Origin: Echinicola pacifica DSM 19836
Lineage (GTDB): Bacteria > Bacteroidota > Bacteroidia > Cytophagales > Cyclobacteriaceae
NCBI RefSeq assembly: GCF_000373245.1
Contig: NZ_KB890738.1
Coordinates: 501,713-565,712 of the forward strand
Reading direction: 5' to 3'
Length of the DNA stretch: 64,000 nt
The first letter of the stretch is position 1; every line of letters starts with the position of its first letter. Below the pieces are notes generated by a model. That model was not told where the DNA came from. It searched no databases and worked only from the letters and a program-made list of their open reading frames with translations. Of this stretch, positions 20,895-46,800 are shown one piece after another. The position numbers were made by a program, and so were the translations under genes.

Positions 20895-20898
20895 AATT

Positions 20899-22717: not shown

Positions 22718-22796
22718 AGAGAATCCTTCAAGCCTTGCAAATAAGTCTCTCAAAAAATTAGAGGCCATAATCAGTTTAATTTAACCCGAATAGCCC

Positions 22797-24540: not shown

Positions 24541-24575
24541 AAAAAAAAAACAACCTGACCAATTTGGCCAGGTTG
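24541..24575 (-). terminator. Intrinsic terminator of tandem susCD unit A
   Basis: On the minus strand CAACCTGGCC (24575-24566) pairs with GGTCAGGTTG (24560-24551), with one G-U pair, followed by ten T. The G-U pair would be an A-C mismatch on the plus strand, which fixes the orientation. Confidence 0.9.
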
Positions 24576-24589
24576 TAAAGTATATGCTA

Positions 24590-26056: not shown

Positions 26057-26068
26057 GTTAATTCTGGT

Positions 26069-29000: not shown

Positions 29001-29236
29001 GAATAACCAATAAAACTAAAAACTAATGTATTCTGGCCCTCTGGGACCGTAATAGAATACATACCGTCTAGGTCGGTGATGGCACCGACTGTAGTACCCT
29101 TTACCAAGACATTCACGCCTGGCAATCCATTAGGCTCTTCTTGCGAAACTACCTTCCCTGTTACCTTGCGACCTTGGGCCCAAGTAGCAGAAATGGTCAA
29201 GAGCACTAAGATTAAACTTAGTAAACTTTTCCTCAT
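26069..29236 (-). CDS. SusC/RagA family TonB-linked outer membrane protein (tandem unit A)
   Basis: A TonB-dependent outer-membrane transporter of 1055 residues. Signal peptide 1-21 (ending SATWAQ), carboxypeptidase-like domain about 22-100 (LPGVNVLVKGTTVGAITDLDG), TonB-box-like DEVIVVAYG (103-111), plug about 115-235 with PLYVVDGVPYDGD and LYGARAANGVIMITTKKG (213-230), then the barrel ending TLGLNVSF. It has exactly the length of the SusC of unit B (32324-35491), and most positions compared by eye agree, including the PIYPVYLQNQQTGGYILDANG and KKLVVGGSIYDYWLRDWRG stretches. The shared upstream sequence AATATAGGTAAA and an inverted repeat lie in its leader. No sigma/anti-sigma or hybrid two-component regulator is adjacent. 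Confidence 0.97.
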   Translation of the reverse strand: MRKSLLSLILVLLTISATWAQGRKVTGKVVSQEEPNGLPGVNVLVKGTTVGAITDLDGMYSITVPEGQNTLVFSFIGYSSFESKIGNQSTVNVTLSPDTQNLDEVIVVAYGSAEKGNFAGSAIAIKEASIANRPINSVTNVLEGQAAGVITTSASGQPGESPTIRIRGIGSVNASQNPLYVVDGVPYDGDISNLNPKDIADVTVLKDASSSALYGARAANGVIMITTKKGGKNKPTFNISIRQGVSSRALPEYDRVNADEYYPLTWESLKFGQMTNSNMAENAASQYASENLIPVLKYNVYDVPNNEVVGVDGMLNSGAVNNFTDLDWFDAVTRSGGRGEYNMSYSGGTDRTDYYTSIGYLNEKGFVIKSDMERFTGRINVNTQATDWFKTGINLSATMTEGNNAATSGNSSYVNPFFFARNMGPIYPVYLQNQQTGGYILDANGQKIYDTGDMTNLGSVFRGSGGSPGRHVVQETKLNENFYDRDVISARAYAEIDFLKNFKFRSNISTDMISYLGVGYDNPIVGDGAPSGRTDRLNTRRNSMTFNQILSYANTINIKHYFEGLVAHENYDLKINRQEIAKQGQILDGNIEPGNFVTVNSADGRVDSYRIESYFSRFNYVYDDKYSLSASIRRDGSSRFFEDVRWGTFWSVAGAWNIEKEAFFNADFFDMLKLRASYGEVGNDGLLDDAGSPDYYPWQALYDLDYNNANEPGILQGSLSATELLWESNNTFDIGIDFAFAKRFTGTLEYYYRVSENLLFDVPLSLTTGIESTPVNVGTMSNTGIELQLQGDIIRNQDFTWNANLNVSTFKNEFKKLPFEEQVVGTKKLVVGGSIYDYWLRDWRGVDPETGYGMYTAVEKLTTEGSLRDDVIIQGQDTLTTTLSNAAYHSAGTAIPDFTGGLSNTFTYKNISLSILTSFSVGGDIYDGVYASMMTSSPDGSSLHKDILNRWETAGDITNVPRMDNIQGQQSNGGSDRWLIDRSYLNLRSINLSYILPANLLKKVDASQASIYVAGENLGWLSKRKGMFVSESFNGTTSNTYTPAKTFTLGLNVSF

Positions 29237-29341
29237 AAAGTTATTTATTTGAGTAATAAAATTGGAAAAAGAACATTCATCACGAATAACTTATATTCTA
29301 GTTTTATGGTAAATAAAACCGATAAACATTCATTTGCTTGC

Positions 29342-29363
29342 AATGTTAAGAATTTTTAACATT
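29342..29363 (-). promoter_or_regulatory. Inverted repeat upstream of susC unit A
   Basis: AATGTTAA-N6-TTAACATT is a perfect 8-bp inverted repeat about 105 bases before the susC start and just downstream of the AATATAGGTAAA sequence. Spacing suits a dimeric regulator. A related TTAACATTAA lies upstream of the Oar-like receptor (47376-47385). The region is AT-rich, so chance is possible. Confidence 0.35.
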
Positions 29364-29375
29364 AAAATACGTTGG

Positions 29376-29387
29376 TTTACCTATATT
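29376..29387 (-). promoter_or_regulatory. AATATAGGTAAA element upstream of susC unit A
   Basis: Identical 12-base sequence, in the same orientation, as at 35555-35566 upstream of susC unit B; its core TAGGTAAAC is also at 690-698 upstream of the first susC. It may be part of a promoter or a regulator site. A second, weaker copy (GAATAGGTAATT) lies at 29398-29409. Confidence 0.4.
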
Positions 29388-29616
29388 TTCTGAAAAATTA
29401 CCTATTCACCCTTTATTTTTACCAAATGAAATGAATCGAAGGTGATAAATTTTCAGAACTTATATGATTCCTAAGCCCTCATCTATGGACAAAAATTAGG
29501 CATCATTTGATTTTTAGAGGATTTTATGCTTTTAATCTCTAAGACATTTGGACAATTATGACTTGGTTAAAAAAAATACCATGAAAACAATTTTACACAA
29601 ACAAAAATCAAATACT

Positions 29617-30621
29617 CTACTCCATACAGTTCTTACAAATATCAATTTCTGATCTATCTAGGAAAATCTGGTTTCTAAAAGACCCATACTTTACATTTTT
29701 CCATATTTCCGCCAATCGCGTTATTCCAATATTACCCATGGTGTATTTTCCATCCTTATCATAGCAGCAGGGAAGCACATCCCCATCCCAGGTGATTACC
29801 GCTCCTTGCCACATCCTCCAACATTTATCTCTAAGCTCTTTTTTGAGCTTCCACTTTCCCATGCCATCAGGCAGATAGCGGGAATATCGGAGGTCGCTGG
29901 GGATCAGCGGGGAGCCATTTTCATAATTATAGATTTGAGCGGTCTTCAGCTGCAGCTCATCCACCCCGAGAGATTTGGCCAGAGACTTGATTTTAGATAG
30001 CTCATGCTCATTCTGGCCAGTCACCAAAAACTGAAATATAACTTGAGGAAAATGTTGATGACGCGCCCGCCGGCTTTTGATCAGTAGATCAATACCCGCA
30101 AGCACCCGATCCAGCTTTCCTCCAATCCGATAATTTTCATACACCTCCTGCGTAGCCCCATCCACCGATACGATCAGCTGCTTAAGGCCTGAATCTAATA
30201 CCTGGGGCACAGTCTTTTCATTGAGGAAATGCGCATTGGTAGAGGTGGCAGTAAAGATCTTATGCTGATCAGCGTATTTTACCAGTTCCAAAAACTGAGG
30301 ATGCAAGAAGGGTTCGCCTTGAAAATACAGGTGCAAATAGGCCAAATGGGGGGATACTTCCTGAATGATCTTTTGGTAAAGTGCTGTATCCAGCATCCCT
30401 GTGGGACGGGAAAAACTCCTCAGGCCAGAAGGACATTCGGGACACCGTAGATTGCAGCCCGTGGTAGGCTCTATTGACAAAGCCGCAGGTAAACCCTGAA
30501 TAAGAGGCTTTCGGAACCATTGAGCTTTCCAAAAAGAGAGATATAAGCTGACAGCATTCCTAACCTTGGCCCAGGACAAATACTTAAAAAACTGAATACC
30601 TAAAACCACTTTGCTTTTCAT
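29617..30621 (-). CDS. Radical SAM protein with reduced SPASM/twitch-like C-terminus
   Basis: A 334-residue radical SAM enzyme. The iron-sulfur cluster motif is CNLRCPEC (Cys56, Cys60, Cys63) in EPTTGCNLRCPECPSGLR, and SAM-binding features follow (LYFQGEPFLHPQFLELV, SVDGATQEVYENYR). The C-terminus has CWRMWQGAVITWDGDVLPCC and ends ICKNCME, giving five cysteines instead of the seven of a full SPASM domain, so at most one auxiliary cluster is likely. The substrate is unknown: no precursor peptide or maturation partner was found beside it. It stands alone between two duplicated susCD units, with its own 180-base upstream gap after their terminator. A housekeeping or lipid- or sugar-modifying role is as possible as a link to the susCD genes. 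Confidence 0.88.
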   Translation of the reverse strand: MKSKVVLGIQFFKYLSWAKVRNAVSLYLSFWKAQWFRKPLIQGLPAALSIEPTTGCNLRCPECPSGLRSFSRPTGMLDTALYQKIIQEVSPHLAYLHLYFQGEPFLHPQFLELVKYADQHKIFTATSTNAHFLNEKTVPQVLDSGLKQLIVSVDGATQEVYENYRIGGKLDRVLAGIDLLIKSRRARHQHFPQVIFQFLVTGQNEHELSKIKSLAKSLGVDELQLKTAQIYNYENGSPLIPSDLRYSRYLPDGMGKWKLKKELRDKCWRMWQGAVITWDGDVLPCCYDKDGKYTMGNIGITRLAEIWKNVKYGSFRNQIFLDRSEIDICKNCME

Positions 30622-30802
30622 GAACTATCTCTCTATCTCGCTCGCTCAGGAATAGTCTTATTCCAGCTCATCAAAATTAGTTATAATCCACTCATCAGCA
30701 AATTTCAAAAAAACTATATGGAAGCAAGGAAATCTCAAAATGAAATCAGCACTTATTGAGCGTTTTTAGGATCCCAGGAAAAATGTGCTCAATTATGAAT
30801 TC

Positions 30803-30838
30803 AAAAAAAAACGACCTAAGCTGTTTGCCTAGGTCGTT
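30803..30838 (-). terminator. Intrinsic terminator of tandem susCD unit B
   Basis: A 12-bp stem on the minus strand (30838-30827 with 30821-30810, one G-U pair, 5-base loop) is followed by a run of T. The sequences of the stems in units A and B differ, but placement and design are alike. Confidence 0.9.
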
Positions 30839-30850
30839 GATACATTATAA

Positions 30851-32311
30851 TCAGGAGGGGTTTTGTATTATTTTATCGTTGGCATTGATTTCATCCAAAG
30901 GAATCTTCCACTGCCATTCATTACTACCTGCATCCCGCTTATAGTTGTTTTCTAATACGGTGCTCACATGATTGCCGCCAGTCCTATCCAGAGGAAGGTT
31001 AAGCCGCTTCAGGTCAAAGAACCGGAATCCCTCTCCCCAGAGTTCGACACGACGCTGGACCATTATTTCTTCTATAAGCAGCTGGCCCGTATTAGTGCTC
31101 AGGAGGTATTTAGGGTCTCTGGCATGAGCCAATTCGTAGAGTACTTCTGCTGCCTTGCTGTTATTTCCTGATCTGGCCATGGCTTCAGCTTCTATCAAGA
31201 CCATTTCGGAAGCTCTCATATAGGGTACATCACCCACAGAACTCGATTCACCTTGCGCAAGAAACTTCCTATTCATATAGGGTTTTTTCACAAATCTATT
31301 TGAAGGAGGCTCGAAAGTAGTTCCTGTAGGATCCCACAATCCTCTTCTCAGGTCTGTATCAGTCATTTTATCATAAAGGAGACTAAAAATGGCCTTGGGA
31401 TTAGAACGGATATTGGTAGAACTAAAATTTAAGGACATATAAGCGAAATAGGAGGTAAAGTAAGTGGTCTGAAGGTCTATTTGATCAAAACCCCAGATCC
31501 ACTCCGGATTATCGACATTATTAAACCCCTCAAAGAGCTCTGTTTCATTCATAATGGTATAGCCATTACGAGCTAGATTGGCAAAGGAAGCCGCTTCTGC
31601 AAATTTCCCTTGGCTTAGGTACGCTCTCGCTTTGATCCCATTGACCACATTGATATTTAAATGGGATTTGGCATATCGATCCTCATTCAGTAGTTTGCTC
31701 GCCTTCTCAAGGTCCTCATGCACCCGGGCATAGACTTCCTCCACGGTATTCCGTGGGCCACCCACGAGTATAGGCTCCAGTACTATTGGGACTCCCAGCT
31801 GGCTATTACTCCCAGCAGCATCATAGCGTTTGCCATAGAATTGCACGAGGTTCAGGTGAGCCCAGGCACGATAGGCCAGAGCCTGGCCCTTGATCACATC
31901 TATATCTGCCTTTGGACCCGAGGCATTGTCTATATTTGCGATGATCATATTAGCATTACTAATTATGGAATAGTAATATTCCCAAATGAATTGAACATCT
32001 GAGGATGTTTCACTGACATTAGTATTCCATCGATAGACGGAAATATAAAAGCCATTCCCCAGGGAGGTATTTACCAGATCTTCGCCAAGCATATCACGGA
32101 TAATCATAGCCGCTCCTTCGCCCCCTTGCCCTTGGTGGCCAAATTGGAGGTTCAAAGCGCGGTGGATTCCATTCAAGGACGTCAGTGCATTTTCAGTAGT
32201 TAGGAAAATCTGATCTGCTGACACCGCATCGGTAGGCTGTGTATCCAAAAAATTAGGTTCACAGCCCATCATCAAGGTCAGCACAAGTAATATATATAGT
32301 GATTTTTTCAT
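30851..32311 (-). CDS. SusD/RagB family nutrient-binding lipoprotein (tandem unit B)
   Basis: A 486-residue SusD-type surface lipoprotein (signal MKKSLYILLVLTLMMGC, Cys17) with mature start EPNFLDTQPTDAVS. The domain order and most residues match the unit A protein: GQALAYRAWAHLNLVQFYGKRY, GARAYLSQ-type helices, VPYMRASEMVLIEAEAMARSGN and EEIMVQRRVELWGEGFRFFDLKRLNL. The gap to susC is 12 bases, the same as in unit A. Differences cluster in the N-terminal loops (NLQFGHQGQGGEGAAM against ERYDSQGQPAESGVM), which may alter ligand choice. The substrate is unknown. Confidence 0.95.
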   Translation of the reverse strand: MKKSLYILLVLTLMMGCEPNFLDTQPTDAVSADQIFLTTENALTSLNGIHRALNLQFGHQGQGGEGAAMIIRDMLGEDLVNTSLGNGFYISVYRWNTNVSETSSDVQFIWEYYYSIISNANMIIANIDNASGPKADIDVIKGQALAYRAWAHLNLVQFYGKRYDAAGSNSQLGVPIVLEPILVGGPRNTVEEVYARVHEDLEKASKLLNEDRYAKSHLNINVVNGIKARAYLSQGKFAEAASFANLARNGYTIMNETELFEGFNNVDNPEWIWGFDQIDLQTTYFTSYFAYMSLNFSSTNIRSNPKAIFSLLYDKMTDTDLRRGLWDPTGTTFEPPSNRFVKKPYMNRKFLAQGESSSVGDVPYMRASEMVLIEAEAMARSGNNSKAAEVLYELAHARDPKYLLSTNTGQLLIEEIMVQRRVELWGEGFRFFDLKRLNLPLDRTGGNHVSTVLENNYKRDAGSNEWQWKIPLDEINANDKIIQNPS

Positions 32312-32323
32312 GAGAAGATTCTT

Positions 32324-35300
32324 TTAGAAGCTAACGTTTAAACCAAGTGTAAATGTCCTTGCAGGAGTATAGGTATTAGAAGTGACCCCGTTGAATCCTT
32401 GCGAAACAAACATCCCTTTCCTCTTTGATGCCCAACCCAAATTTTCTCCCGCCACATAAATGCTGGCCTGTGATACCTGCACCCTCTCCAGCAGACTCGC
32501 TGGAAGAGTATAGCTTAGATTTACAGACCTTAGGTTCAGGTAAGACCTATTTATCAACCATCGATCAGAAGCGGCATCGGAGTCGGAGGCATTATTGCTA
32601 TCCATTTTCGGTACTTCGGTGATATCACCAGGTTTTTGCCAACGGTTTAAGATATCCTCATGTAAGGCGGAGCCCTCAGGAGAAGCGCCCATCAGTGAGC
32701 TATAAACATTGTCATAGATCAAGCCACCCACAGAGAAACTAGTCAATACACTCAAAGAGAATTTCTTATACGTAAAGGTATTGCTTATTCCGCCTGAGAA
32801 ATCTGGTATTGCGGTTCCAGCACTATGGTATCGGGCATTATTCTGGCTTGTAGTCAGGGTATCCTGTCCTATAATTTTCAGATTATCATTAATTTTCCCG
32901 TTTTCATCATAGTAATTGTCAGCGGTGTATAGCCCTTGGCCAGTTTCGGGATCCACCCCCCTCCAGTCTCGCAGCCAGTAGTCATAAATAGATCCACCCA
33001 CCACTAGTTTTTTACTTCCATTGATAAGTTCATCAAATGGCAGCTCCTTAAATTCATTCTTAAAGGTGGAAATATTGAGGTTTACATTCCACGAAAAATC
33101 TTTTTTGCGGAGGACATCCCCTTGTAATTGGAACTCTATACCAGAGTTTGACATGGCGCCGAGATTAGCAGGAATACTGCTAAAACCCGTAGTTAAGGAC
33201 AATGGCACCTCGAAGAGTAGATTATCAGATATACGATAATAATACTCCAGGGTACCAGAAAACTTATTGCCAAAGGCAAAATCCACCCCTACATCAAATG
33301 TTTTATTGGCCTCCCATAATAGGCCTTTAGAAGCCAGGCTTTCCTGAAAAGTACCTGCCTCGTTAGCATTATTATAGTTTAGACCATATAAAGCCTGCCA
33401 AGGGTAGTAGTTTTGACTCCCATTGGAATATTGCACCCCATTATTTCCGACCTCTCCATAACTCATTCTTAATTTGATCATTTGGAAATAATCAAGGTTG
33501 AAAAAATTCTCCTTATCGATACTCCAAGCCCCGGCAACAGACCAAAACAGTCCCCAGCGTACATCTTTATAAAATCTGGAAGATCCATCTGTTCGTATGG
33601 AGGCAGACAGGGAGTATTTTTCATCATAGACATAATTAAATCGAGAGAAATAAGATTCTATTCTATCGGTATCCACACGACCAGAGGCAGAGTTTACAGT
33701 GACGAAATTATCAGGCTCCACATTACCATCTAATATCTGCCCTGATTTAATCACATGCTGCCGGTTATACTTATAGCTATAGCTTTCATGCGCCATCAAT
33801 CCTTCCAGATAATGCTTGCCTTCAAAGGTATTTGCATAGCTCAGGATCTGATTGAAGGTGGTAGAGTTTTTTCGGATATTCAACCGCTCCATCAATCCTC
33901 CTGGTGCGCCATCTCCCACCACACGATTTTGATAGATCATCCCTAAATAAGAAGTGATGTCTGTAGAGATATTGGTTTTAAACTTAAAATCCTTCAAAAA
34001 ACTCACCTCAGCATAGGCACGTGCACTTATGATATCCTCATCTGTAATATCCTCGTTGAGTATTGCCTCCTGGATGGTGTGTCGGCCCGAGTTAGCGCCA
34101 GATGGACGGAAGACAGATCCCAAATCTGTGCGATCTCCCGTATCAAAAATCTTTTGGCCATTCTCATCCAGAATAAATCCTCCGGTTTGTTGATTTTGAA
34201 GATAAACAGGAAAAATCGGCCCCATATTTCTGGCAAAGTAGAAGGGATTTACGATACCATTGCTTGAAGTGGTAGAGGCATAATTACCATCTATCATGGT
34301 GGCGGAGAGATTTACCCCTGTTTTTAGCCAGTCTGTGGCTTGAGTATTGACATTAATACGGCCAGTAATACGCTCCAGGTCGGATTTTAAAACGAAACCC
34401 TCTTCTTTCAGGTAACTAACACTGGTATAGAAATCCGTCGCCTCTGAGCCACCGGAATAGCTCATTATATATTCTCCTCTTCCACCAGACCGCGTCACAT
34501 CATCAAACCAGTCAAGGCCTTGAAAATTATTAACTGCCAGAGGGTTTAGTTTTCCATCTATCCCCACTACTTCATTATCGGGGATATTATAGACATTATA
34601 ATTTAGCACTTGGATTAGATTCTCCGTAGCATATTGACTGGCATCGACCTCGTTTTCGTTGCTGGAAGACATGATACCATTTTTGAGAGATTCCCACTGT
34701 AATGGATAATATTGATCAGCATTGACACGACCATATTCCGGAAGAGCCCTTGAAGACACCCCCTGTCTCACGTTGAGATTGAAAGTGGAATTATCCTTTT
34801 TCCCTTTCTTGGTGGTGATCATGATGACACCATTGGCAGCCCTTGCCCCATACAGTGCAGAGGAGGAAGCATCCTTAAGTACCGTCAAGTCGGCAATATC
34901 ATTAGGTGCGATATTGGATATATCACCATCATATGGAACCCCATCGACCACATATAGCGGACTTTGGGAAGCATTTACTGAGCCCACACCACGAATCCGT
35001 ACTTCAGGACTAAACCCTGGCTGCCCACTGGCAGAAGTGGTAAACACACCCGCCGCCTGTCCTTCCAGGACATTAGTGACGCTACTTACGGCTCGATTGG
35101 TTATTTCGGTATCCTTTATGGCCAGTGCTGAGCCACCAAAAGTATCCTTATGGGTAGTGCCATAGGCGATCACGATGACCTCGTCCAGATTTTGGGTATC
35201 AGGAACCATCGTCACATTGATCGTGGATTGGTTGCCTATAGCGATAGTCTCCGAGCTATAGCCTATAAAACTAAAAACAATCGTCGTCTGGCCCTCTGGC

Positions 35301-35491
35301 ACTGCTATAGAATAATTACCATCCAAGTCTGTCACAACCCCGACTGTGGTTCCCTTTACCAGAACATTTACTCCCGGTAATCCCTGCGGCTCTTCCTTGG
35401 ATATCACTCTTCCTGTTACCTTCTGGCTCTGGGCCCAAGCAGCAGAAAAAGCAAAGAGCAACAACACAATACTTAGTAAACTTCCCTTCAT
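32324..35491 (-). CDS. SusC/RagA family TonB-linked outer membrane protein (tandem unit B)
   Basis: A 1055-residue TonB-dependent transporter, paralogue of the unit A SusC. Signal peptide ending AAWAQ (residue 21), carboxypeptidase-like domain (LPGVNVLVKGTTVGVVTDLDG), DEVIVIAYG TonB-box-like stretch, plug with PLYVVDGVPYDGD and LYGARAANGVIMITTKKG, and barrel ending TLGLNVSF. No insertion or deletion changes the overall length relative to unit A, so divergence is by substitution. The AATATAGGTAAA sequence lies 64 bases before the start codon, closer than in unit A. With its SusD it forms a two-gene operon. Substrate unknown. Confidence 0.97.
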   Translation of the reverse strand: MKGSLLSIVLLLFAFSAAWAQSQKVTGRVISKEEPQGLPGVNVLVKGTTVGVVTDLDGNYSIAVPEGQTTIVFSFIGYSSETIAIGNQSTINVTMVPDTQNLDEVIVIAYGTTHKDTFGGSALAIKDTEITNRAVSSVTNVLEGQAAGVFTTSASGQPGFSPEVRIRGVGSVNASQSPLYVVDGVPYDGDISNIAPNDIADLTVLKDASSSALYGARAANGVIMITTKKGKKDNSTFNLNVRQGVSSRALPEYGRVNADQYYPLQWESLKNGIMSSSNENEVDASQYATENLIQVLNYNVYNIPDNEVVGIDGKLNPLAVNNFQGLDWFDDVTRSGGRGEYIMSYSGGSEATDFYTSVSYLKEEGFVLKSDLERITGRINVNTQATDWLKTGVNLSATMIDGNYASTTSSNGIVNPFYFARNMGPIFPVYLQNQQTGGFILDENGQKIFDTGDRTDLGSVFRPSGANSGRHTIQEAILNEDITDEDIISARAYAEVSFLKDFKFKTNISTDITSYLGMIYQNRVVGDGAPGGLMERLNIRKNSTTFNQILSYANTFEGKHYLEGLMAHESYSYKYNRQHVIKSGQILDGNVEPDNFVTVNSASGRVDTDRIESYFSRFNYVYDEKYSLSASIRTDGSSRFYKDVRWGLFWSVAGAWSIDKENFFNLDYFQMIKLRMSYGEVGNNGVQYSNGSQNYYPWQALYGLNYNNANEAGTFQESLASKGLLWEANKTFDVGVDFAFGNKFSGTLEYYYRISDNLLFEVPLSLTTGFSSIPANLGAMSNSGIEFQLQGDVLRKKDFSWNVNLNISTFKNEFKELPFDELINGSKKLVVGGSIYDYWLRDWRGVDPETGQGLYTADNYYDENGKINDNLKIIGQDTLTTSQNNARYHSAGTAIPDFSGGISNTFTYKKFSLSVLTSFSVGGLIYDNVYSSLMGASPEGSALHEDILNRWQKPGDITEVPKMDSNNASDSDAASDRWLINRSYLNLRSVNLSYTLPASLLERVQVSQASIYVAGENLGWASKRKGMFVSQGFNGVTSNTYTPARTFTLGLNVSF

Positions 35492-35554
35492 ATTATTAAT
35501 TTTAGGATTAAATAATTTTTTAATTCAGCAAGACATTCCTCTGAAATGGTGTCT

Positions 35555-35566
35555 TTTACCTATATT
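35555..35566 (-). promoter_or_regulatory. AATATAGGTAAA element upstream of susC unit B
   Basis: Same 12-base sequence and orientation as upstream of susC unit A (29376-29387). Being kept in both non-coding leaders, which otherwise look quite different, suggests a function. Confidence 0.4.
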
Positions 35567-36240
35567 ATCATAAACATTACTTGGTGAGGCTATTTTATGA
35601 TAAATTAACATAAATTATTATAGGCATTATTTTCAACATTCAAAAAAACAGCCTTCCTAATCCAAGCCACAACCTGCAGGAAAACCTTAAATATTCAGGA
35701 TAAAATAGAACCAAAAATCCACCCATTTCCCCGCAGAATATTAAGGTGAATTGAAGACTTTCTCTGGTTACAGCATATAAATACAGCTTTATAATGGAAT
35801 GGGTGAATGAAAATTAAATTCTGAAAATTAGTCTACCTATTTATTATAAGTAAAATTTTCCTTAAAAATGTCATTAATATTCTTAATAAGCCTTTCCTCA
35901 AAAAAATGAGCTCCTATATAAATCTGCTTCAAATATAATGGTAAGCAGGCTCAAAGCAATAATCCTTGAAGGCTAATTGACAGCTAAAAAATTTCCATAA
36001 AAAAAAGATAAAAAATTACTAAAATTAAAATTGAATAGGTTCCAAAATTATAGATTCACACACAAAATGATGAAACACAATTTATACCCTTAAGCAAGTC
36101 AGATACGCAACTCCTAGTTTCTTAGGTTATTTTTACCGCTCACTAAATCTTTATTATTAATGTAAAAATCATTATTATATATATAAAATTTATTTTACTT
36201 TAAAAAACATCACGTTTTCTCTATAGAATAAAAGAGATTT

Positions 36241-36432
36241 TCAGAAATCACCCTTAGCATTGGAACTATAAAAGTGATTACCGCCTCCACTTCTGTAAAT
36301 TTTTTGAAGGTCAGCAGATTTCCCGAGCCCCCCATATATTATAAACCCTGATGATCCACTCTGTATTTCGTCAAGTGGAAGTATAAGTGATTCTCCTATT
36401 CCCAGTTTTTGCAAGGCAGATTCGAAAGTCAT
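36241..36432 (-). pseudogene. Small open frame, possibly the end of a broken gene
   Basis: The 63-codon frame (MTFESALQKLGIGESLILPL, then DEIQSGSSGFIIYGGLGK, ending YSSNAKGDF) reads like protein, and the upstream codons up to a TGA at 36463-36465 (NDGELERSLW) continue in the same style. A neighbouring frame just before it ends in KVEMMES. One frameshift near 36450 would join the two, suggesting a decayed 3' end of a longer gene. I recognise no family. It could also be a chance frame. Confidence 0.2.
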
Positions 36433-36527
36433 CCAAAGACTACGCTCAAGCTCTCCATCATTTCAACTTTTGTCGAAAATCCATCTTTAGGTTTGCGTAA
36501 AAATGGGTATTTATATGTCCTCAGAAC

Positions 36528-36561
36528 AAAAAAAACCGATGCCGAAAATCGACACCGGTTT
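36528..36561 (-). terminator. Orphan intrinsic terminator
   Basis: On the minus strand a 13-bp stem (36561-36549 with 36545-36533, two G-U pairs, 3-base loop) is followed by U8. On the plus strand the two G-U positions are A-C mismatches, so the element works on the minus strand. No protein gene lies upstream of it in that direction. Confidence 0.85.
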
Positions 36562-36735
36562 ATACGGTTGATTTACCTCTATCTACTTTAGCATAGGCTG
36601 AGGAATCTATACAATATCATAAAACATGCCATAAGCACAGGGTCCACAAAATAGGTTTGTGTATGCTACGTCGATAGATCAAAACCCCTATTTTCTCAAT
36701 CTTTGGAGTATGCGATCTGTTTATTTACCTTTATT
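36562..36735 (-). ncRNA. Possible small RNA or remnant transcription unit
   Basis: This is the stretch between the near-copy of the susC element (AATAAAGGTAAA, minus strand, 36735-36724) and the orphan terminator. It has no open frame longer than about 40 codons on the minus strand. A short RNA, a small peptide gene, or the scar of a deleted third susCD unit would all fit. Confidence 0.25.
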
Positions 36736-37015
36736 CATAAAATATTTAACATTTTCAAGATAAAAAGTCAAATACCATTTTTCCCTTTTAGTGACTTTTA
36801 CTATTTTTAGTATAAAATAAACCAACCCTTAGCCCTTTACCAAGTAAAATACCTACCATAGCGGACTCATTAGACCAAAGAGCCTAGGACGATATAGGTA
36901 TGACTGGCAATTATATTTCACTTTTCGAATTAGGATTTCTTTTTTAACAGTACTAATAGGAAATAACAACAATTTTTGAAGACAAGAGGCTCCACCATAT
37001 AAAAAACATAATCTC

Positions 37016-38200
37016 ATGAAAAATATAATTTTTGTCCTTACCGCGGTAATACTGATCAGTGGTTGTGGAAAAAAAGGGCAAAAAAAGCAAGCGCCAGTCC
37101 GTCAGGTCCCAGTGGTCATGGTGGTCAATAAGGATCTGCAAGGAAGCTACACCTTTCCGACGGAGTTTATGGGCAAGGTGCATAACGAAGTTCGCCCCAA
37201 GATATCGGGATATATTCAGGAAGTATATATAGAGGAAGGGCAGAAAGTCAGCAAGGGGCAGATGCTATTCAGGCTGGAGACCAATATCCAAACTGAAAAT
37301 GCTGCTGCTGCCAGGGCAGAAATCAATGCCTCTCAAGCCGCCGTGCAAGCTGCTGAGGCCAGTGTGCAGGCAGCCCAGGTCAATGTGGATAAACTCATCC
37401 CTCTGGTCGAGCAAAATATCATCAGTAACGTATTGCTGGAGACGGCCCGGGCGGACCTCCTAAAAGCCAAGGGGCAGCTCAGCCAGGCCAAAGCAGGCTA
37501 TGGCACCTCCCAAGCCAACTTTAAGGGAATAGAGGAGGACATCAAGTTCTCCGAAATCACCAGCACCATGGATGGTGTCCTTGGCCGGATCAACTACCGA
37601 ACAGGAAGTCTGGTGAGCCCAAATGACCCTAAGCCTCTAACCACCATTTCGGATATCAGCGAGGTGTCAGGCTATTTTGCTCTCAACGAAAAACAGTATA
37701 TCTATTTCTTCCAGCATTTTGAGGGGAAGAACCTGGAGGAGAAAATCCAAAATCTACCGCCAGTGCAGCTTATCCTGCCCAATGGCAGCATCTATGAGGA
37801 AACTGGTAAGGTGCAGGCCGCTACGGGGGAGATAAACCCCAATACTGGCAGTATCCAATTCAGGGTGGTATTCGAGAACCAATCGGAAATGCTCAAAAAT
37901 GGCAGCACAGGCACCATCAAAATTCCTCGTGATTATAAGCAAGCATTGGTCATCCCTGAGTCGGCCACCTTTGAGCGACAGGGAATCACCTATGTATATA
38001 AGGTGCTTGGAGACAGCCTGAGCATGCAGACCATCACCCTCAAAGATCGGGTAAGCAACTATGGCGTGGTGGAAGAAGGGCTAAGTGCTCAGGACCAGAT
38101 CGTCGCGACAGGCGTGGCGACACTGCGAGCAGGAATGCACATCAAGCCAAAAACCATCAGCCTAGACAGCATGGTCCAATCTATCAAGGCCGTGCGCTAG
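37016..38200 (+). CDS. RND efflux periplasmic adaptor lipoprotein
   Basis: A 394-residue membrane fusion protein (AcrA/MexA type) that links the inner-membrane pump to the outer-membrane channel. Lipobox ISGC with Cys17. A lipoyl half-motif lies near residues 55-85 (RPKISGYIQEVYIEEGQKVSKGQMLFRLE), an alpha-hairpin with Ala/Gln-rich heptads spans about 95-170 (AARAEINASQAAVQAAEASV), and the second lipoyl half and beta-barrel follow (ITSTMDGVLGRINYRTGSLVS, TTISDISEVSGYFAL), ending with a membrane-proximal domain (IPESATFERQGITYVYKV). It is the first gene of a three-gene operon with 60 bases to the pump gene. No regulator gene is adjacent. Confidence 0.95.
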   Translation: MKNIIFVLTAVILISGCGKKGQKKQAPVRQVPVVMVVNKDLQGSYTFPTEFMGKVHNEVRPKISGYIQEVYIEEGQKVSKGQMLFRLETNIQTENAAAARAEINASQAAVQAAEASVQAAQVNVDKLIPLVEQNIISNVLLETARADLLKAKGQLSQAKAGYGTSQANFKGIEEDIKFSEITSTMDGVLGRINYRTGSLVSPNDPKPLTTISDISEVSGYFALNEKQYIYFFQHFEGKNLEEKIQNLPPVQLILPNGSIYEETGKVQAATGEINPNTGSIQFRVVFENQSEMLKNGSTGTIKIPRDYKQALVIPESATFERQGITYVYKVLGDSLSMQTITLKDRVSNYGVVEEGLSAQDQIVATGVATLRAGMHIKPKTISLDSMVQSIKAVR

Positions 38201-38260
38201 CAAAAGCTACCATCCGCCTATAATGCTAAAAATGAGTGATTTTATCTTAAGATATTTTTC

Positions 38261-41200
38261 ATGATCAAGACTTTTATTGACCGGCCGGTACTCTCCACCG
38301 TGATCACCATCTTCATGGTGCTCCTGGGGGTATTGGGGATCTATTCTCTGCCGGTGACCCAGTACCCGGACATCGCTCCCCCCACCGTGCAGATTCAGGC
38401 CAATTATACCGGAGCTAGTGCAGAGACTGTTCTAGAGAGCGTCATCATCCCCATCGAGGAGGAGGTCAATGGCGTGGAGAATATGACGTATATCAATTCT
38501 AGCGCAGACAATACAGGCGCAGCGACCATCACGGTGTACTTCGAGCAGGGGGTGGATCCGGATATTGCCACTGTAAATGTGCAAAACCGCGTCGCCCGGG
38601 CCACTCCATTACTGCCTGAAGAAGTCAATAAAAGGGGCGTGGTGACACAAAAGCAGCAAACAAGTGCTTTGATGTTTATCACCTTCTATTCCACAGTGGA
38701 GGACTTTGACGATGTCTATATTCAGAATTATATGAATATCAATATTATCCCTCCCATCAAGAGAATATCGGGAGTGGGTGATGCGAAGGCATTTGGCATA
38801 AAAGATTACGCCATGCGGATATGGCTGGATCCGGCCAAACTCACCAACTATGGCCTGGTCCCTTCGGATGTCATCGCAGCCATCAATGAGCAAAGTCAGC
38901 AGGCCACCCCTGGCCAGATAGGGCAAAATTCCGGTAAAGCCTTCCAGTACGTCATTAATTACAGCGGAAAATATAGCGAGGCGGAGCAATACAAAAATAT
39001 AGTGGTCAAAGTAGGAGAGGATGGAGAAATCCTACGCGTGGCCGATGTGGCAGAAGTAGAACTCTCTGCCTTCTCCTTCACCACCACTGGCAAGCTGGAC
39101 GGGCATCCCGCCGTGTCCATGGCCATCTACCAGACCCCGGGCTCCAACGCCCAGAAAATCATCGAGGAGGTAAAAGCCCAACTAATCGCTAGCCGGGGCC
39201 AAATGCCCGCAGGTATTGATTATGATATCAACTATGATACTAATGAATTTCTGACCGCCTCCATGGAGGAAGTTATAAAGACGCTTTTTGAAGCTTTTAT
39301 ACTTGTCTTTATCGTGGTGTTCATTTTCTTGCAGGACTTCAGGTCCACACTGATCCCGGCCATAGCGGTCCCAGTGTCCATCATAGGCACCTTCTTCTTC
39401 CTCAATGTTTTTGGGTTTTCGATAAATCTGCTTACCCTCTTTGCCTTGATCCTGGCGATCGGCATCGTGGTGGATGATGCCATCGTGGTGGTGGAAGCCG
39501 TCCACGCCAATATGGAGAAGAAACCCGGGAAAGATATCAAGGACGTCACCAATGAGGCGATGGAAAGTATATTCTCCGCCCTGATCTCGATCACCTTGGT
39601 GATGATCGCGGTATTCATCCCTGTCACGTTCATTTCTGGTCCCACGGGAGTATTTTACAAGCAATTTGGAGTAACCCTCGCCATCGCCATAGTCTTATCG
39701 GCGATCAATGCCCTTACGCTCAGTCCCATGCTCTGTGCCTTGCTGCTAAAGCCCCATGTGGAAGATGGCAAAACCACTGTCATCAAGCGATTTTACGCTC
39801 ATTTTAATGTGGCATTTGCTAAGCTTACCGAGCGATATGGCCGAGCCGTGGCGATGATTATCAACCAAAAATGGATCGCCCTATTGCTTATCGCCGGCGC
39901 AGTGGCGGCCATACTCTGGGCCAATGCCACCACTCCAACAGGCTTCGTCCCAAACGAGGACAGAAAAATCATTTTCTCCAATGTGGAGCTCCCCCCGGGC
40001 TCCTCCATGGACAGGACATACCAGGTCATGGAGCAGCTCAACGCGATCGTCTCTCCGATTCCCGGGGTGGACAAGGTGACCTATATGGCTGGCTTCAGCC
40101 TCATCAACGGCGCCGGAAGTAATTATGGATTGGCATTTATCCAGCTCACCGATTGGGAAGAGCGGAAAGGGGATGATGAGCTGGGGGTGGTTGCGCTGAC
40201 GCGCAAAATGTTTGCCGTAAGCCAGGAGATCTCCGATGCCAAGGTCCTGTTCTTCAACCCGCCGAGTATTCCTGGATATGGAATAAGCTCGGGTTTTGAG
40301 ATGCAGGTACTGGATCAGTCGGGCGGTACTGCTGAGCAGCTGGCAAGTGCCACTCAGGAATATATGGCGGCACTCACTGCCCGCCCAGAAGTACAGTATT
40401 CCCAAAGCAGCTTCAACACCAACTATCCGCAATATGATCTGCGGATCAATGTGGACCTGGCCAAGCAAAAAGGCGTAAGCATCAATGATATATTTGCCTC
40501 ATTGAGTGGCTATGTGGGAGGGATTTATGCGGCAGACTTCACCAAATTTGGCAAGCAATATAAGGTCATGGTGCAAGCCGCTGCCGACGCCCGTGATGAT
40601 ATGGCCAAGCTAAATAGCATCTATGTCCGCACCAAAGACGGTGAAATGTCTCCTATTAATGAGTTTATTCATTTAGAAAAAATCTCCGGCCCCCAGTCCG
40701 TACAGCGCTTCAACCTGTTCAGCTCTGCCATGGTGAGCGGAGCTCCCGCCTCAGGATATAGCACCGGTGATGCCATTAATGCCGTACGGGAAGTGGCCGC
40801 GGATCACCTTCCTGCAGGTATGGACATTGATTTCTCCGGGCTAACCAGGGAGGAAATCAGCGCTGGCTCTCAGACAGTCATCATCTTTATCATCAGTCTG
40901 ATCTTCGTTTACCTCCTGCTCTCCGCCCAATATGAAAGCTACGTATTGCCCTTGGCCATTATGTTTACCTTGCCGCTGGGAGTATCGGGAGCCTATATTT
41001 CTCAGAAAATTGCAGGCTTGGAAAACAATATATTCTTCCAAATCGCCCTGATCATGTTGATAGGATTATTGGCGAAAAACGCCATATTGATTGTGGAGTT
41101 TGCCCTGCAAGAGCGCCAAAAGGGCAATAGCATCGTGCAAGCAGCCGTATTAGGTGCCAAGGAACGACTGCGCCCCATCCTCATGACCTCTTTTGCCTTT

Positions 41201-41395
41201 GTGCTTGGGGTGATGCCCCTGGTCATGGCTTCCGGCGTCGGCGCCAATGGCAACCGATCTCTGGCCACCGGAGCAGCTTTTGGGCTGCTCGTGGGCACCA
41301 TCTTCGGCCTTTTAGTCATTCCCGTATTATTTGTCATTTTCCAGTCCTTGCAGGAAAAAATCAAGCCCATCAAACTACTTCCAAAAGATGAATAG
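38261..41395 (+). CDS. RND multidrug efflux pump, HAE1 type (AcrB/MexB-like)
   Basis: A 1044-residue inner-membrane proton antiporter with 12 transmembrane helices and two large periplasmic loops. It starts MIKTFIDRPVLSTVITIFMV, standard for HAE1 pumps. The proton-relay residues are present: Asp405-Asp406 in GIVVDDAIVVVEAV (helix 4) and Lys939 in LLAKNAILIVEFA (helix 10). Other hallmarks are SIITLVMIAVFIPVTF-like helix 6 sequence (ISITLVMIAVFIPVTFISG) and RPILMTSFAFVLGVMPLV near the end. It would export hydrophobic or amphipathic drugs, bile-salt-like compounds or solvents. Its last codons overlap the start of the channel gene (ATGAATAG), which suggests coupled translation. Confidence 0.97.
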   Translation: MIKTFIDRPVLSTVITIFMVLLGVLGIYSLPVTQYPDIAPPTVQIQANYTGASAETVLESVIIPIEEEVNGVENMTYINSSADNTGAATITVYFEQGVDPDIATVNVQNRVARATPLLPEEVNKRGVVTQKQQTSALMFITFYSTVEDFDDVYIQNYMNINIIPPIKRISGVGDAKAFGIKDYAMRIWLDPAKLTNYGLVPSDVIAAINEQSQQATPGQIGQNSGKAFQYVINYSGKYSEAEQYKNIVVKVGEDGEILRVADVAEVELSAFSFTTTGKLDGHPAVSMAIYQTPGSNAQKIIEEVKAQLIASRGQMPAGIDYDINYDTNEFLTASMEEVIKTLFEAFILVFIVVFIFLQDFRSTLIPAIAVPVSIIGTFFFLNVFGFSINLLTLFALILAIGIVVDDAIVVVEAVHANMEKKPGKDIKDVTNEAMESIFSALISITLVMIAVFIPVTFISGPTGVFYKQFGVTLAIAIVLSAINALTLSPMLCALLLKPHVEDGKTTVIKRFYAHFNVAFAKLTERYGRAVAMIINQKWIALLLIAGAVAAILWANATTPTGFVPNEDRKIIFSNVELPPGSSMDRTYQVMEQLNAIVSPIPGVDKVTYMAGFSLINGAGSNYGLAFIQLTDWEERKGDDELGVVALTRKMFAVSQEISDAKVLFFNPPSIPGYGISSGFEMQVLDQSGGTAEQLASATQEYMAALTARPEVQYSQSSFNTNYPQYDLRINVDLAKQKGVSINDIFASLSGYVGGIYAADFTKFGKQYKVMVQAAADARDDMAKLNSIYVRTKDGEMSPINEFIHLEKISGPQSVQRFNLFSSAMVSGAPASGYSTGDAINAVREVAADHLPAGMDIDFSGLTREEISAGSQTVIIFIISLIFVYLLLSAQYESYVLPLAIMFTLPLGVSGAYISQKIAGLENNIFFQIALIMLIGLLAKNAILIVEFALQERQKGNSIVQAAVLGAKERLRPILMTSFAFVLGVMPLVMASGVGANGNRSLATGAAFGLLVGTIFGLLVIPVLFVIFQSLQEKIKPIKLLPKDE

Positions 41396-42791
41396 CATTC
41401 TAAAAAATATACTGCCTCTTGGGCTTTCTATCTGCTTACTCTGCTCCTGCCTGGCCACCAAGGATTATTCCAGACCTGAAACCTATGCAGTGGAACAATA
41501 TAGAACCCAAAGAATCAGCCATGACACTAGCTCATGGGCAGAGTACCATTGGGAAGATATCTTTAGGGATAGCTACCTGAAGCAGTATATTACGGAGGCC
41601 CTTCAGGCCAATCTTGATCTACTCAAAGCACAACAAAACCTGCTCATCTCTGCCTCACTAGCGAAACAGTCAAAATCACTAATGGCCCCCACCGTCACAG
41701 GGGGCTTTACTCCTGCTTATATTTGGCCCTCTACGGAGACCTTTTTGGGCGATTCCTACCCCAACGACAGCCACTATTCGGATATCTCTCTGGGACTCAG
41801 CCTGGCTTGGGAAGCCGATGTATGGGGACGACTAACTAGTTTGAAAAAAGCCGCCGCTGCACAGTACCTGGCCTCCGAAAATATGCAGCGACTCATCAAG
41901 TCCCGGGTCGTCGGAACCATCACTAGCAATTATTACCTGCTTCTTTCCCTGGATGCAAAGGAAGCTTTTCTTAAAGACGCTATAAAAAACAGGGAGGAAG
42001 GACTCACCACCGTCCGTAGCCTCAAGGAATCTGGTTCACTGTCAGAAGTGGCGGTTATCCAAAATGAATCCCTGCTCAACATTGCTCAAACTATGCTGAT
42101 CGATGTGCAACGTGAAATCAAACTTCGGGAAAATATCCTAAGTGTGCTCATTGGCCGTACTCCCGAGAAGCTGCCGCGGAACAGCTGGGAGGCCCAAAAA
42201 ATCATCCCTCCACTTGGCTTAGGGATTCCGATGGATCTGCTAAACAACAGACCTGATATAATGTCTGCCGAATATGAACTGGTTCGCGCCTTTCAGCTTA
42301 CCAATGTGGCCAATGCTAGCTTCTATCCTAAGATCTCCATCCAAGCCTCTGGCGGACTCAATAGTCAAAACTTCGACAATCTATTTAGCGTGAATGCCCT
42401 CTTTGGAAATCTTATCGGCAATCTTACCCAGCCAATCTTCAACCAAAGGCGACTGAGAACTCAGAAAGAGGTGTCAGTCGCCCGCCAACAAACGGCCTAT
42501 TTGAACTATAAGCAAACGGTGCTCGAAGCCTATCGGGAGGTGTCCGATGCTCTCTATACCTATGATGCAGGCGCAGCAAAAATGACGATCCAGTCACATC
42601 AAAACCAACAATTGCGCCTAGCCGTGAAGTACTCAGAAACCCTTCAGGACCAGGGAATGGCCTCCTATCTGGAAGTCCTAGCGGCAAAAAATAATTCGTT
42701 GGATATCCAGCTGGACATCATCGACACCAAGCTATCTATGATGCTGTCCGCCGTGGATCTCTACCTGGCCCTTGGCGGCGGCTGGAAATAA
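41388..42791 (+). CDS. Outer membrane efflux channel, TolC/NodT family lipoprotein
   Basis: A 467-residue outer-membrane factor completing the tripartite pump. The start at 41388 (MNSILKNILPLGLSICLLCS) is chosen: it overlaps the pump stop by 8 bases and gives a lipoprotein signal with Cys21, unlike the longer frame from 41331. NodT-type sequence follows (TSSWAEYHWEDIFRDSYLKQ, LKAQQNLLISASLAKQSK), with two repeated coiled-coil halves and the conserved GLGIPMDLLNNRPDIMSAEYEL and FFNQRRL-like PIFNQRRLRTQKEV. Length is normal. No terminator stronger than a 6-bp hairpin is visible downstream. Confidence 0.95.
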   Translation: MNSILKNILPLGLSICLLCSCLATKDYSRPETYAVEQYRTQRISHDTSSWAEYHWEDIFRDSYLKQYITEALQANLDLLKAQQNLLISASLAKQSKSLMAPTVTGGFTPAYIWPSTETFLGDSYPNDSHYSDISLGLSLAWEADVWGRLTSLKKAAAAQYLASENMQRLIKSRVVGTITSNYYLLLSLDAKEAFLKDAIKNREEGLTTVRSLKESGSLSEVAVIQNESLLNIAQTMLIDVQREIKLRENILSVLIGRTPEKLPRNSWEAQKIIPPLGLGIPMDLLNNRPDIMSAEYELVRAFQLTNVANASFYPKISIQASGGLNSQNFDNLFSVNALFGNLIGNLTQPIFNQRRLRTQKEVSVARQQTAYLNYKQTVLEAYREVSDALYTYDAGAAKMTIQSHQNQQLRLAVKYSETLQDQGMASYLEVLAAKNNSLDIQLDIIDTKLSMMLSAVDLYLALGGGWK

Positions 42792-42941: not shown

Positions 42942-43424
42942 TTAGAGGTCTTTTAGCATCCAGATGGAGCAAGAGAAATGGCCAGAATCACCCAGAGGCT
43001 TGGAAAGCCGCCTGAACCCCACCTTTTCATACAAACTTACTGCCTGACCAAATAAGGGTATACTTTCGAGATAAAGCCCTTCATAGGCCATATCCTGAGC
43101 ACTAGCGATACACTTTTCCATTAGGGTCTTGCCAATTCCCTTTCCCCGGGCCCCAGCATCCAAATATAATTTGACCAGCTCGGCCAGGCCTGATGGCAAT
43201 CCACTGGTGGGATATACGCCACAGCAGCCGAGGATATTTCCATCCTCCTCTGCCAGCCAAAAAACAGCCTTCTCTGCCCGCTCAAAAAGGCCATGCAAAT
43301 CCTCCATTTCGGGATCTGCAAATACCGTCCCCTCCCGCGGAGCATCATACTCCTCAAATACTGCTTGAATCAATTTTTTGACCGCAAGGTTATCCTCTTT
43401 TTCTATAAGGCGATAGGTATTCAT
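42942..43424 (-). CDS. GNAT family N-acetyltransferase
   Basis: A 160-residue acetyl-CoA-dependent acyltransferase. The coenzyme A loop is in LYLDAGARGKGIGKTLMEKCI (Arg93-Gly-Lys-Gly-Ile-Gly), preceded by the beta-4 strand ELVKLYL and followed by YEGLYLESIPLFGQAVSLYEKVGF, the usual GNAT C-terminal pattern. It resembles the small acetyltransferases that act on amino acids or peptides, but the acceptor is not identifiable. It is a single gene converging with the efflux operon. A full set of conserved positions is present and nothing suggests truncation. Confidence 0.92.
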   Translation of the reverse strand: MNTYRLIEKEDNLAVKKLIQAVFEEYDAPREGTVFADPEMEDLHGLFERAEKAVFWLAEEDGNILGCCGVYPTSGLPSGLAELVKLYLDAGARGKGIGKTLMEKCIASAQDMAYEGLYLESIPLFGQAVSLYEKVGFRRLSKPLGDSGHFSCSIWMLKDL

Positions 43425-43742
43425 AAGGCAAATTTACATTTTATCCATTATAATACCCCTCTAAATGGACTGAGAAACTCATTAGCTGGGAAATATTATT
43501 TCTACCCCCAGACCAGGATCCCAATCAATAATTATAACTCCTGGAGGAGCTAAGTGAGCCGATGAGACTTGATAAGGCTTGGCTTGCTATCATTGGTAAT
43601 CCTATAAATAGGGGAGCTCGGGGAGGATAAAAAGGAAGTGATTTGAGGAAAGAAAAATGGCCCGATTGCTCCGCAATGTGATTTTTGCCTAATCACTATT
43701 AGGTAGAAGGGCTAGCACTGGGAGATTTTTACGGGAGCGCCA

Positions 43743-43784
43743 GAAAACAAAAATGGGTACTGCCAGATGAAGGCAGTACCCATT
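43743..43784 (-). terminator. Distal terminator of the Oar-like receptor gene
   Basis: A perfect 13-bp stem (AATGGGTACTGCC 43752-43764, GGCAGTACCCATT 43772-43784) with a 7-base loop is followed on the minus strand by the T-rich TTTTTGTTTTC. It lies about 90 bases after the receptor stop and after a first hairpin. Confidence 0.8.
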
Positions 43785-43833
43785 GGTGCAGCTATAGTCA
43801 GTCCCTTGGGGAAGGCTACGCCAAATAATGACT

Positions 43834-43864
43834 AAGGGGCTGTCTCAATAAAAAACAGCCCCTT
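43834..43864 (-). terminator. Proximal hairpin after the Oar-like receptor gene
   Basis: A perfect 10-bp stem (AAGGGGCTGT 43834-43843, ACAGCCCCTT 43855-43864) starts 9 bases after the stop. It lacks a proper T-run, so it may protect the 3' end or act as a weak terminator. Confidence 0.55.
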
Positions 43865-43872
43865 CAAAAATC

Positions 43873-46800
43873 TTAGAATATATATCTCAAACCAACCTGC
43901 ATGCCCCAAGTAGTAGAATAGCTACTTTGGTTTCTGAAAGGAGTGGTTACCAATTCATCAGAAGTTGTCTGAACGGTAAGGGCAGGAATCCCTGAAGCAG
44001 GAGTATCAGAGGCCAGGTTAAGCAGGTTTTCTGCTCCGTTTAGCTGCTGTTGTACTCCCCAGTTTTTGCTAAGAAGGTTACCCACATTTACGATATCCAC
44101 ACTTAGCTGAAGCGTATGCTTATGCGATCCAATTTCCGTAAATAGATCCTGGAGGATTCTTACATCCCATCTGTTTAGCCAAGGCATCAGGAAACCATTT
44201 CTCGGAAGGTACTCTCCTCTGTATTTCTCCAAGCCATTTTCGCTTACGAAAGCATCAAAAGCTGCTTTCTGCTCAGCTACTGTAAAATCACCATCTACCA
44301 AAGGAAGGTCATCGGTGTTATTAGGAAGGAAGATCAGGTCGGCGTTTATCCCATCATTATTGATATCATCTCCATAGTAATAGGAGAATCTACCTTGATG
44401 CGATCCGCTATAATACACGCCTACGGTGGTCGCAGCAAAATTAGAATATTCGAATCTATAGTTGATGTTTGCGACTACACGGTGAGGGATCGCATAATCA
44501 GAGATATGAAGCATCTGATCATTTGGACTGTTGATGATCGGGCTGGCACCCCAAGCGGAGTTGGCGCTAGAGCCAGAGTTGGCAGAAACCTCCTGCGATG
44601 CAGAATAGGTATAGAATACTGAACCAGATATGCCATTATAATCCGGCATTGTCAAACCAACTGTTGCACTGAAGGCATGACCTTTCACATCTGTATTAGT
44701 AAGTACGGTAGCGCTATTTCCACCCATTACTGAGTTATATGCTGTGCTTTGGCCAGGAAGGAAAAACTCCCTATCATCTCCATAATCGCCTACTTCTCCA
44801 CTAGAACCATAATTCATAGTGTTGGTAGAGCGAGTTCTGTTTGCACCATACTGGAATACACCATTGATATCTTTGGTATAAAGGAGGTCAGCAGTAGCAA
44901 TCAAAGGCGTATTAGGAATAACATAATCTGCTCCTAAGCTAGATCTCCATACCATCGGCATCTTAAATTCTCTATCCACCAAAGCAAATGAGCCTGGAGC
45001 TCCTTCAGAAGGAGAAGAGATAAACACGTCTTCTGCACCAGCAGGAACGTTATTTACATGGTAATATCTATCAGGCTGGAAGGTAATATTTCCTATCCAT
45101 CCGGCTACGTCCTCATAACTTCCAGGCTCCACATTATTTTGGATCACACCTGCGTTGGTTGGCATATTGGTAAGCCATACGAAAGGTACTCGACCGGAGA
45201 AGGCACCTGTACCACCTCTAAGTGTGAAGGTTCTGTCGCCATTCACATCCCAGTTGAATCCTAATCTTGGAGAAACCATGATTTTAGACTTAGGCCAGTC
45301 GCCAGAGCTATAGTGCGTAGGCATACCGTATTTGTCCAGAAGGGTGATATTATCGATAGACTGGTTTGCAGTCAGGTCATTGAGGTAAATAGGAAGCTCT
45401 GCACGAACACCAAAGGTCAGGTCCAAATCTTCGTTTACCGAGAACTTATCCTGAGCATAGATAGAGGCAAGGCCAAAATTCACTCTAGAGTAAGTATCTT
45501 GTCCTTCATACGGATAGGTCAATCCAAACATGGTAGGCGCCACCTCATTGGCAGTGCCAGTGGTAAGGAAGTCCTCCACAGAGGCATATCGGTAATAAGA
45601 AGTACCCATTCTCACATAACTGTTTCCAAACTTCTGAATTTCAAAAGCTGCCCCAGCGGTGATGGTATGACTACCTTCTACATAAGTAAGGTTGTTTATG
45701 AAGGAGTAGTTGTCATTAACCACGTCATTATTATAAGAGAAAAGCTCAGTACCAAAACTCATATAGTTGATAGAACCTGGAGATTTCACACCATTTACGA
45801 TCTCACCGCCATCCCAGATATCCACAAATGGGAAGAGCTGGTCACTTGGAGTGGTTCTGGTATCTCTGATTCTGGAATAAGTTGCCAGGAACTGGTTACT
45901 TAATTTGGCAGAGAAGTAGCTATTAAGTTCAGCAGTGATAGATCTCACAGAGTTTTCAAAGCCATAATTGGCATTTTCGAAAGCGATGGAATTCTGACCC
46001 ACACGTGATCCATTGGAGAAAGGTGAGCGTGGTCTAGGACCAGAATTGGCGTTAGCCACCTGAGGGGAAATCCCCACCACCTGATTATAACGAACGGCTA
46101 GTTTGTGCTTTTCGTTGATATTCCAATCCACACGAGCAAGGAATTTGGTGCTCTCTTGTTTTGCTTCATTGGCATATCCCTGATATCTGCCTGGATCATA
46201 TCCCCACTGGTTGATCAGGTGATCTCTTACTGCTTCTAGGTCAGCGACTGTTGTTCTGGAGATATTATTCTCTGGATCAGAAACACCATTAGTTGAGGGC
46301 TTCCATAGGTTGGCGCCAGAGGCATTTGCTCCTGTTTGGAGTTCTCTTTCAGCATTGACAAACAAGAATAGTTTGTTTTTGATGATAGGACCACCTAGTC
46401 TAAAACCAAAGTTCTGGCTAGCGGCATCAATTTTTTCCAGCTCATTATCTTCAATTTTACGACCTTGAAGATCCTGGTTTTGAAGGAAATAATAAGCGGA
46501 ACCTTCAAAGGTGTTCGTACCACTTTTGGTAACGGCGTTGATACCGGCACCAGTAAACCCACTTTGGGTAACATCAAAAGGAGCGATGTTTACAGAGATT
46601 TCCTCAATCGCATCCAAAGAAATCGGCTGGGAATTACCTCCTGGTAGGGGGCTACCACTCAGACCGAAGCCATTATTGAAGTTGGCACCATCAATCTGCA
46701 GGTTATTGTACCTAGCATCTCTACCGGCGAAGGAGTTACCGTCTGCCTGAGGCGTAAGACGAGTAAAGTCCATGATACTACGATTGATTTGCGGCAAGTC

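Follow-up and report, generated by a model that had tools for sequence, protein, structure and literature searches.

The gap of 1.5 kb (35492-37015, 31% G+C) between two divergent genes of Echinicola pacifica DSM 19836 contains a genuine intrinsic terminator on the minus strand that has no gene to terminate, and we give a probability of about one half to the reading that it ends a short lineage-specific minus-strand transcript at 36561-36525. All positions refer to the window, i.e., the whole stretch of 64,000 nucleotides that was analysed (contig NZ_KB890738.1, 501,713 to 565,712). The terminator and the genes bordering the gap are:

36525..36561, minus strand: intrinsic terminator with a 13-bp stem, a 3-nt loop and a T run, without a feeding gene
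32324-35491, minus strand: susC copy B, bordering the gap
37016-42791, plus strand: RND efflux operon (adaptor, ACR_tran pump, outer-membrane efflux protein), its adaptor gene bordering the gap

Results

An orphan terminator in the gap

Read from 36561 on the minus strand, the hairpin has the sequence AAACCGGTGTCGA-TTT-TCGGCATCGGTTT, with 13 pairs (6 G-C and 2 G-U) and a loop of 3, in agreement with the stem given in a preliminary description of this DNA. The run of eight U reported there corresponds to eight T at 36535-36528, but three of these pair with AAA at the base of the stem, leaving TTTTTGTT (five T, G, TT) as the free tail. Under a strict rule (perfect stem of at least 10 pairs, at least 5 G-C, at most 3 G-U, 6 T in 8, either strand), none of 400 dinucleotide-preserving shuffles of 35492-37015 produced a stem of even 10 pairs. 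A looser consensus scan of the gap returned 1 site against a shuffle mean of 1.0; since that scan is at chance level and would not by itself have revealed the hairpin, the significance of the terminator rests on its stem length. Fold z scores of the three 120-nt minus-strand segments that include it were -3.8, -3.7, and -2.3. The hairpin at 36561-36525 thus combines a G-C-bearing stem with a T run at once after it, beyond chance, as an intrinsic terminator does.

The claim that nothing feeds this terminator was borne out against the gene list: upstream of it, in its direction, the start of the divergent gene is 455 bases off, and none of the listed genes runs into it. Stems of at least 12 pairs occur in six hairpins of the window, with 36561-36525 as the sole orphan among them. 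Over 424 kb (the window plus congener stretches), where genes were called crudely as frames of at least 100 codons, there were 20 such hairpins and 2 orphans, the other of which adjoins a converging gene. The gene-end terminators of the window, e.g., 24542-24576 and 30802-30838 (14 and 13 bases past a gene), share stem length, G-C content and T run with the orphan, which differs in having no gene before it. Lowering the stem to 8 pairs gave ten sites in the window, one of them inside a gene; here the minus-strand reading of the hairpin at 16383-16425 likewise had no feeding gene. That hairpin is a perfect two-way structure, flanked on either side by a T run; the plus-strand gene 14960-16018 ends 370 bases before it.

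A lost susCD unit is not supported as the source of the terminator and the 12-mer

The window carries two susCD pairs in tandem (24590-35491) whose SusC copies, A and B, are 73% identical to each other and have their best named relatives in Algoriphagus and Belliella. The preliminary description had suggested, as its second reading, that the promoter and terminator were left behind by a third susCD unit lost through recombination, on account of a 12-mer that recurs almost unchanged ahead of both susC genes of the window and upstream of the orphan terminator:

36724..36735, minus strand: 12-mer AATAAAGGTAAA, supposed susC upstream element

The match itself was confirmed: AATATAGGTAAA at 29387-29376 and 35566-35555 and AATAAAGGTAAA at 36735-36724, all on the minus strand, are identical in 11 of 12 bases. 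Three sites compare with 0.72 expected, a weak excess reached in 4 of 100 shuffles. The link to susC did not hold up. In the window the 12-mer stands ~150 bases from the start codon of one susC copy and ~75 from that of the other, and none of six congener susC leaders (430 bases each) contains it within one mismatch. Two-mismatch sites were found in three of the six, at scattered distances, and inspection by eye showed a different block, TGTTAATTTTT..., common to the leaders of G003, G004, G005, and G010. Because of the unequal spacing and the absence from all six congener leaders, the 12-mer does not qualify as a general element of susC leaders, and it is most likely unrelated to susC. Bacteroidetes promoters have a TTTG box in their consensus, and the complement of the 12-mer at 36735-36724 overlaps a plus-strand promoter-like site, TTTG-N20-TACCTTTA (36702-36733), pointing at the efflux operon; it scores 9/10 against the consensus, a weak result given an expectation of 0.63 such sites per strand.

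Comparison with sister genomes also went against a lost third unit. SusC copy B was sought in 11 genus genomes (E 1e-200, with scoring limited to 72 candidates per genome), and its own genome has two matches, whereas the 10 congeners have one match in six, none in four and two in none. The relatives show no pair at the gap. When the gap was compared with the window genes, as DNA and in six-frame translation, neither susC nor susD nor the radical-SAM gene had left a significant trace: the translated gap matched SusC-B with a best E of 2.5, and its DNA matched the susCD units over at most 26 bases (E 0.08), which represent leader B against leader A around the 12-mer. Against congener stretches the best DNA matches were of 25-28 bases (E 0.09) and fell in the part of the gap that forms the susC-B leader. 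A SusC scan of genome contigs gave 59 loci, and these, compared with the gap together with L044, gave a best gap match of E 0.010. With no second SusC match in congeners, no remnants in the gap and no 12-mer in congener leaders, we attach almost no weight to the loss of a third unit, and the orphan terminator has no bearing on how susCD units duplicate or are lost.

The tandem pairs are associated with one further gene:

29617-30621, minus strand: radical-SAM/SPASM gene, directly upstream of susC copy A

In the six congeners with a susCD pair, that pair is nearer to copy A, with SusC identities of 81-82% (vs. 70-71% to B) in four and 69-70% (vs. 62-63%) in two; copy B is the extra one, upstream of the radical-SAM gene. 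In all six, susC is directly preceded by an orthologue of the latter (67-71% identical). The best 25 of 54 NCBIfam matches of the window gene, headed by maturases, were all below their cut-offs, and the radical-SAM/susCD partnership might hint at a modified peptide or ligand.

Small reading frames around the terminator

The preliminary description had pointed to small frames around 36241-36432 and had named a small peptide gene as a possible source of the transcript. The 63-codon ATG frame is indeed present:

36241..36462, minus strand: orphan frame spanning 73 codons between stops and 63 when counted from its ATG (36432); located beyond the terminator, with a weak coding signal

Since it sits beyond the terminator, it is not the gene that feeds it. 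Its codon score was reached by 13 of 2000 shuffles, and that of the ATG frame by 37 of 2000, with 12 frames tried. Two control genes were reached by 0 of 2000, but stops were allowed in their shuffles, making the raw score the fair comparison: 69 and 78 for the control genes over ~160 codons, and 9.6 and 14.7 for the frame over 64 and 74. From codon usage, the coding signal is suggestive at most, and it is possible that the frame is a gene fragment. Searches with the frame retrieved nothing from Pfam, NCBIfam, and PHROGs, no relative among phages, plasmids, and viral contigs, its own genome only among 196 family and 390 order genomes, and a best E of 0.4 among solved structures.

On the other side of the terminator, minus-strand frames of 21, 22, 23, 34, 54, and 76 codons begin upstream and could in principle encode a small peptide ending there. 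The frames of 54 and 76 codons overlap or touch the efflux gene, and the stop-to-stop frames 36617-36724, 36721-36828, and 36853-37101 all have negative codon scores. The last was also reached by 13 of 2000 shuffles, but with its negative score, with stops allowed in the shuffles and with an overlap with the efflux gene. As the stretch upstream of the terminator is moreover without a relative, a small peptide gene ending at the terminator is hardly credible.

The gap lies in a rearranged setting beside an efflux operon of patchy distribution

We scored all candidates for the efflux adaptor in the 10 congeners and found none at E 1e-100. With at most 4 candidates scored per genome, matches occurred in 2 of 390 family genomes at E 1e-90 and in 8 of 395 phylum-wide genomes at E 1e-110, own genome included in both; the seven others of the phylum-wide search all belong to one other family of the class. 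Scanning genome contigs for the adaptor gave no match. This very patchy distribution suggests that the RND efflux operon (37016-42791) was probably acquired. A related operon in G179 (53% in the adaptor) has an upstream region whose best match to the gap is 26 AT-rich bases (E 0.024). In G179 this match is close to the adaptor start, whereas in the gap it falls at the susC-B end, and we do not regard it as homology.

Within 40-kb stretches, relatives G006, G007, and G008 have the GNAT gene and the outer-membrane-barrel gene, and the efflux operon is missing. In G006 and G007 the block 20268-24290 adjoins the GNAT gene and is inverted relative to the window (42942-47244 of the window is also concerned), implying that the stretch of ~20-43 kb of the window has been rearranged; their susCD pair and barrel gene stand 80-86 kb apart. 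Pieces that are separate in relatives thus meet at the gap, a natural setting for a stranded terminator. Accordingly, the main rival to a present-day transcript is that the hairpin once served a gene other than susCD that was lost as the efflux operon or the duplicated susCD arrived, and that nothing is transcribed into it today. The junction, not seen in relatives, the distribution of the adaptor, the inverted block and the weak coding signal of 36241-36462, which may be a further remnant of these events, are all consistent with such a loss. It is harder to reconcile with a stem that is unbroken, with G-U as its only irregular pairs, while the remainder of the gap is unrecognisable, and with 36562-37015, upstream of the terminator, where no gene remnant was detected. 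We regard this relic of a lost gene as a serious possibility, at about a third of the weight.

The position of the hairpin, between two divergent transcription units and facing the susC-B control region, also fits an insulator that stops minus-strand leakage from the divergent efflux promoter without a useful RNA product. The plus-strand site at 36702-36733 could be that promoter, but it is near chance level, and sequence alone does not separate such an insulator from the short-transcript reading. We consider it unlikely, though less so than a lost susCD unit or a peptide gene.

The candidate RNA

Since a strong geneless terminator must end, or have ended, something, a short transcript is the best remaining reading; of the earlier interpretation, the independent short transcript thus stands, while the lost susCD unit was not supported and the small peptide gene did not convince. 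Its putative body is:

36562..36735, minus strand: candidate small RNA body, a predicted branched hairpin closed by UCUAUC...GAUAGA

In favor of the transcript are a terminator well outside chance expectation (0 of 400 shuffles) and like the gene-end terminators of the window, and a stem kept unbroken within an AT-rich gap that has no recognised relative. Weighing against it, the body folds about like its shuffles: 36566-36682 gave z -1.35 (19 of 200 shuffles as good), and 36520-36735, terminator included, z -1.62 (13 of 200). No minus-strand promoter was found between 36560 and 37015 by two consensus scans, a sigma-70 scan and a scan for the TTTG and TAnnTTTG boxes (the latter as given for Bacteroidetes in the available part of PMC9723704); the four minus-strand sites of the second scan are all at or below 36050. 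Nor did pairing with the neighbours stand out: against plain shuffles, duplexes with their start regions gave z +0.3 (susC-B), -0.7 (efflux adaptor), and +1.5 (susC-A), and the strongest predicted duplexes were with four of 37 genes elsewhere in the window (z -2.4 to -3.05).

A further point against the transcript is that no relative of the body was found. The covariance search proposed in the preliminary description, run with a one-sequence model of 36566-36682, saw no conserved RNA, with its own genome alone matching among 196 family genomes; as filters were stricter and candidates limited in number, weak matches may be lost. At the DNA level, the gap had no long match in 58 relatives (pieces of 34-50 bases in three, E 0.0004-0.0009), and neither had 36500-36960 in 195 other family genomes. 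The latter search gave 21 matches besides its own, in 20 genomes, of 23-58 bases at E 0.001-0.01; 18 fell in the AT-rich 36710-36846 (25.5% G+C) and 3 at the terminator end. Fourteen of the 21 were checked (23-58 bases, 4-31% G+C), and 7 of the 14 were inside an open frame of at least 100 codons; the three at the terminator end were read in context, and that in G009 is another terminator. We read these short matches as chance.

Rfam gave no match above the gathering threshold over the whole window. The best sub-threshold match was STnc240 (RF02074; 36601-36524, minus strand; 23.2 bits vs. a gathering threshold of 55 bits; E 1.5), a family that is enterobacterial; the match is probably due to chance and carried by the terminator. 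The 6S model had no match in the own genome, and was itself found in just 5 of 14 control genomes, so that its absence is weak evidence. A mobile-element origin was also considered and rejected: the sequence is in one place only in its own genome, a 761-base stretch had no plasmid match at the DNA level, and the 10 inverted pairs were mostly AT-rich, none being recognised as element-like terminal repeats.

Discussion

We infer that the transcript, if the reading holds, is made today. It would start between ~36950 and ~36650, near the divergent control region of the efflux operon (start 37016) or inside it, and would be roughly 100-400 nt long. Should it act at all, ordinary routes are likely: base pairing with mRNAs, or a halt to divergent transcription from the efflux promoter before this arrives at the susC-B promoter ~1 kb on. 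A stronger version, in which a new lineage-specific small RNA, back to back with the efflux operon, controls that operon or susCD and was brought by the acquired operon as its own regulator, seems to us improbable.

The phylum is rich in intergenic small RNAs; the available part of one study counts 135 in Bacteroides thetaiotaomicron, including MasB, of roughly 100 nt and narrowly conserved, and takes as criteria an own transcript of 30-500 nt and a mapped start site (PMC10994844). As far as the accessible portions of that study and of a second one describe them, MasB and Rfp18 of Flavobacterium psychrophilum resemble the candidate in their free-standing intergenic position and size range (PMC10994844, PMC9723704), and MasB also in its narrow conservation (PMC10994844). 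In the same portions both are seen as transcripts, whereas the candidate is known from its terminator alone, without start site, conservation or target. Rfp18 is described as widely conserved in its genus (PMC9723704, in part), unlike the 36562-36735 stretch, and MasB as linked to tetracycline sensitivity, which does not count as evidence for the candidate beside the efflux operon. Conservation, usual but not required for Bacteroidetes small RNAs, was not found for the candidate (own genome only, 1 of 196).

If it is transcribed, the orphan terminator would mark a further small RNA confined to a single lineage, next to an efflux operon; if it is not, it would be an example of a terminator that has outlasted the gene it served.
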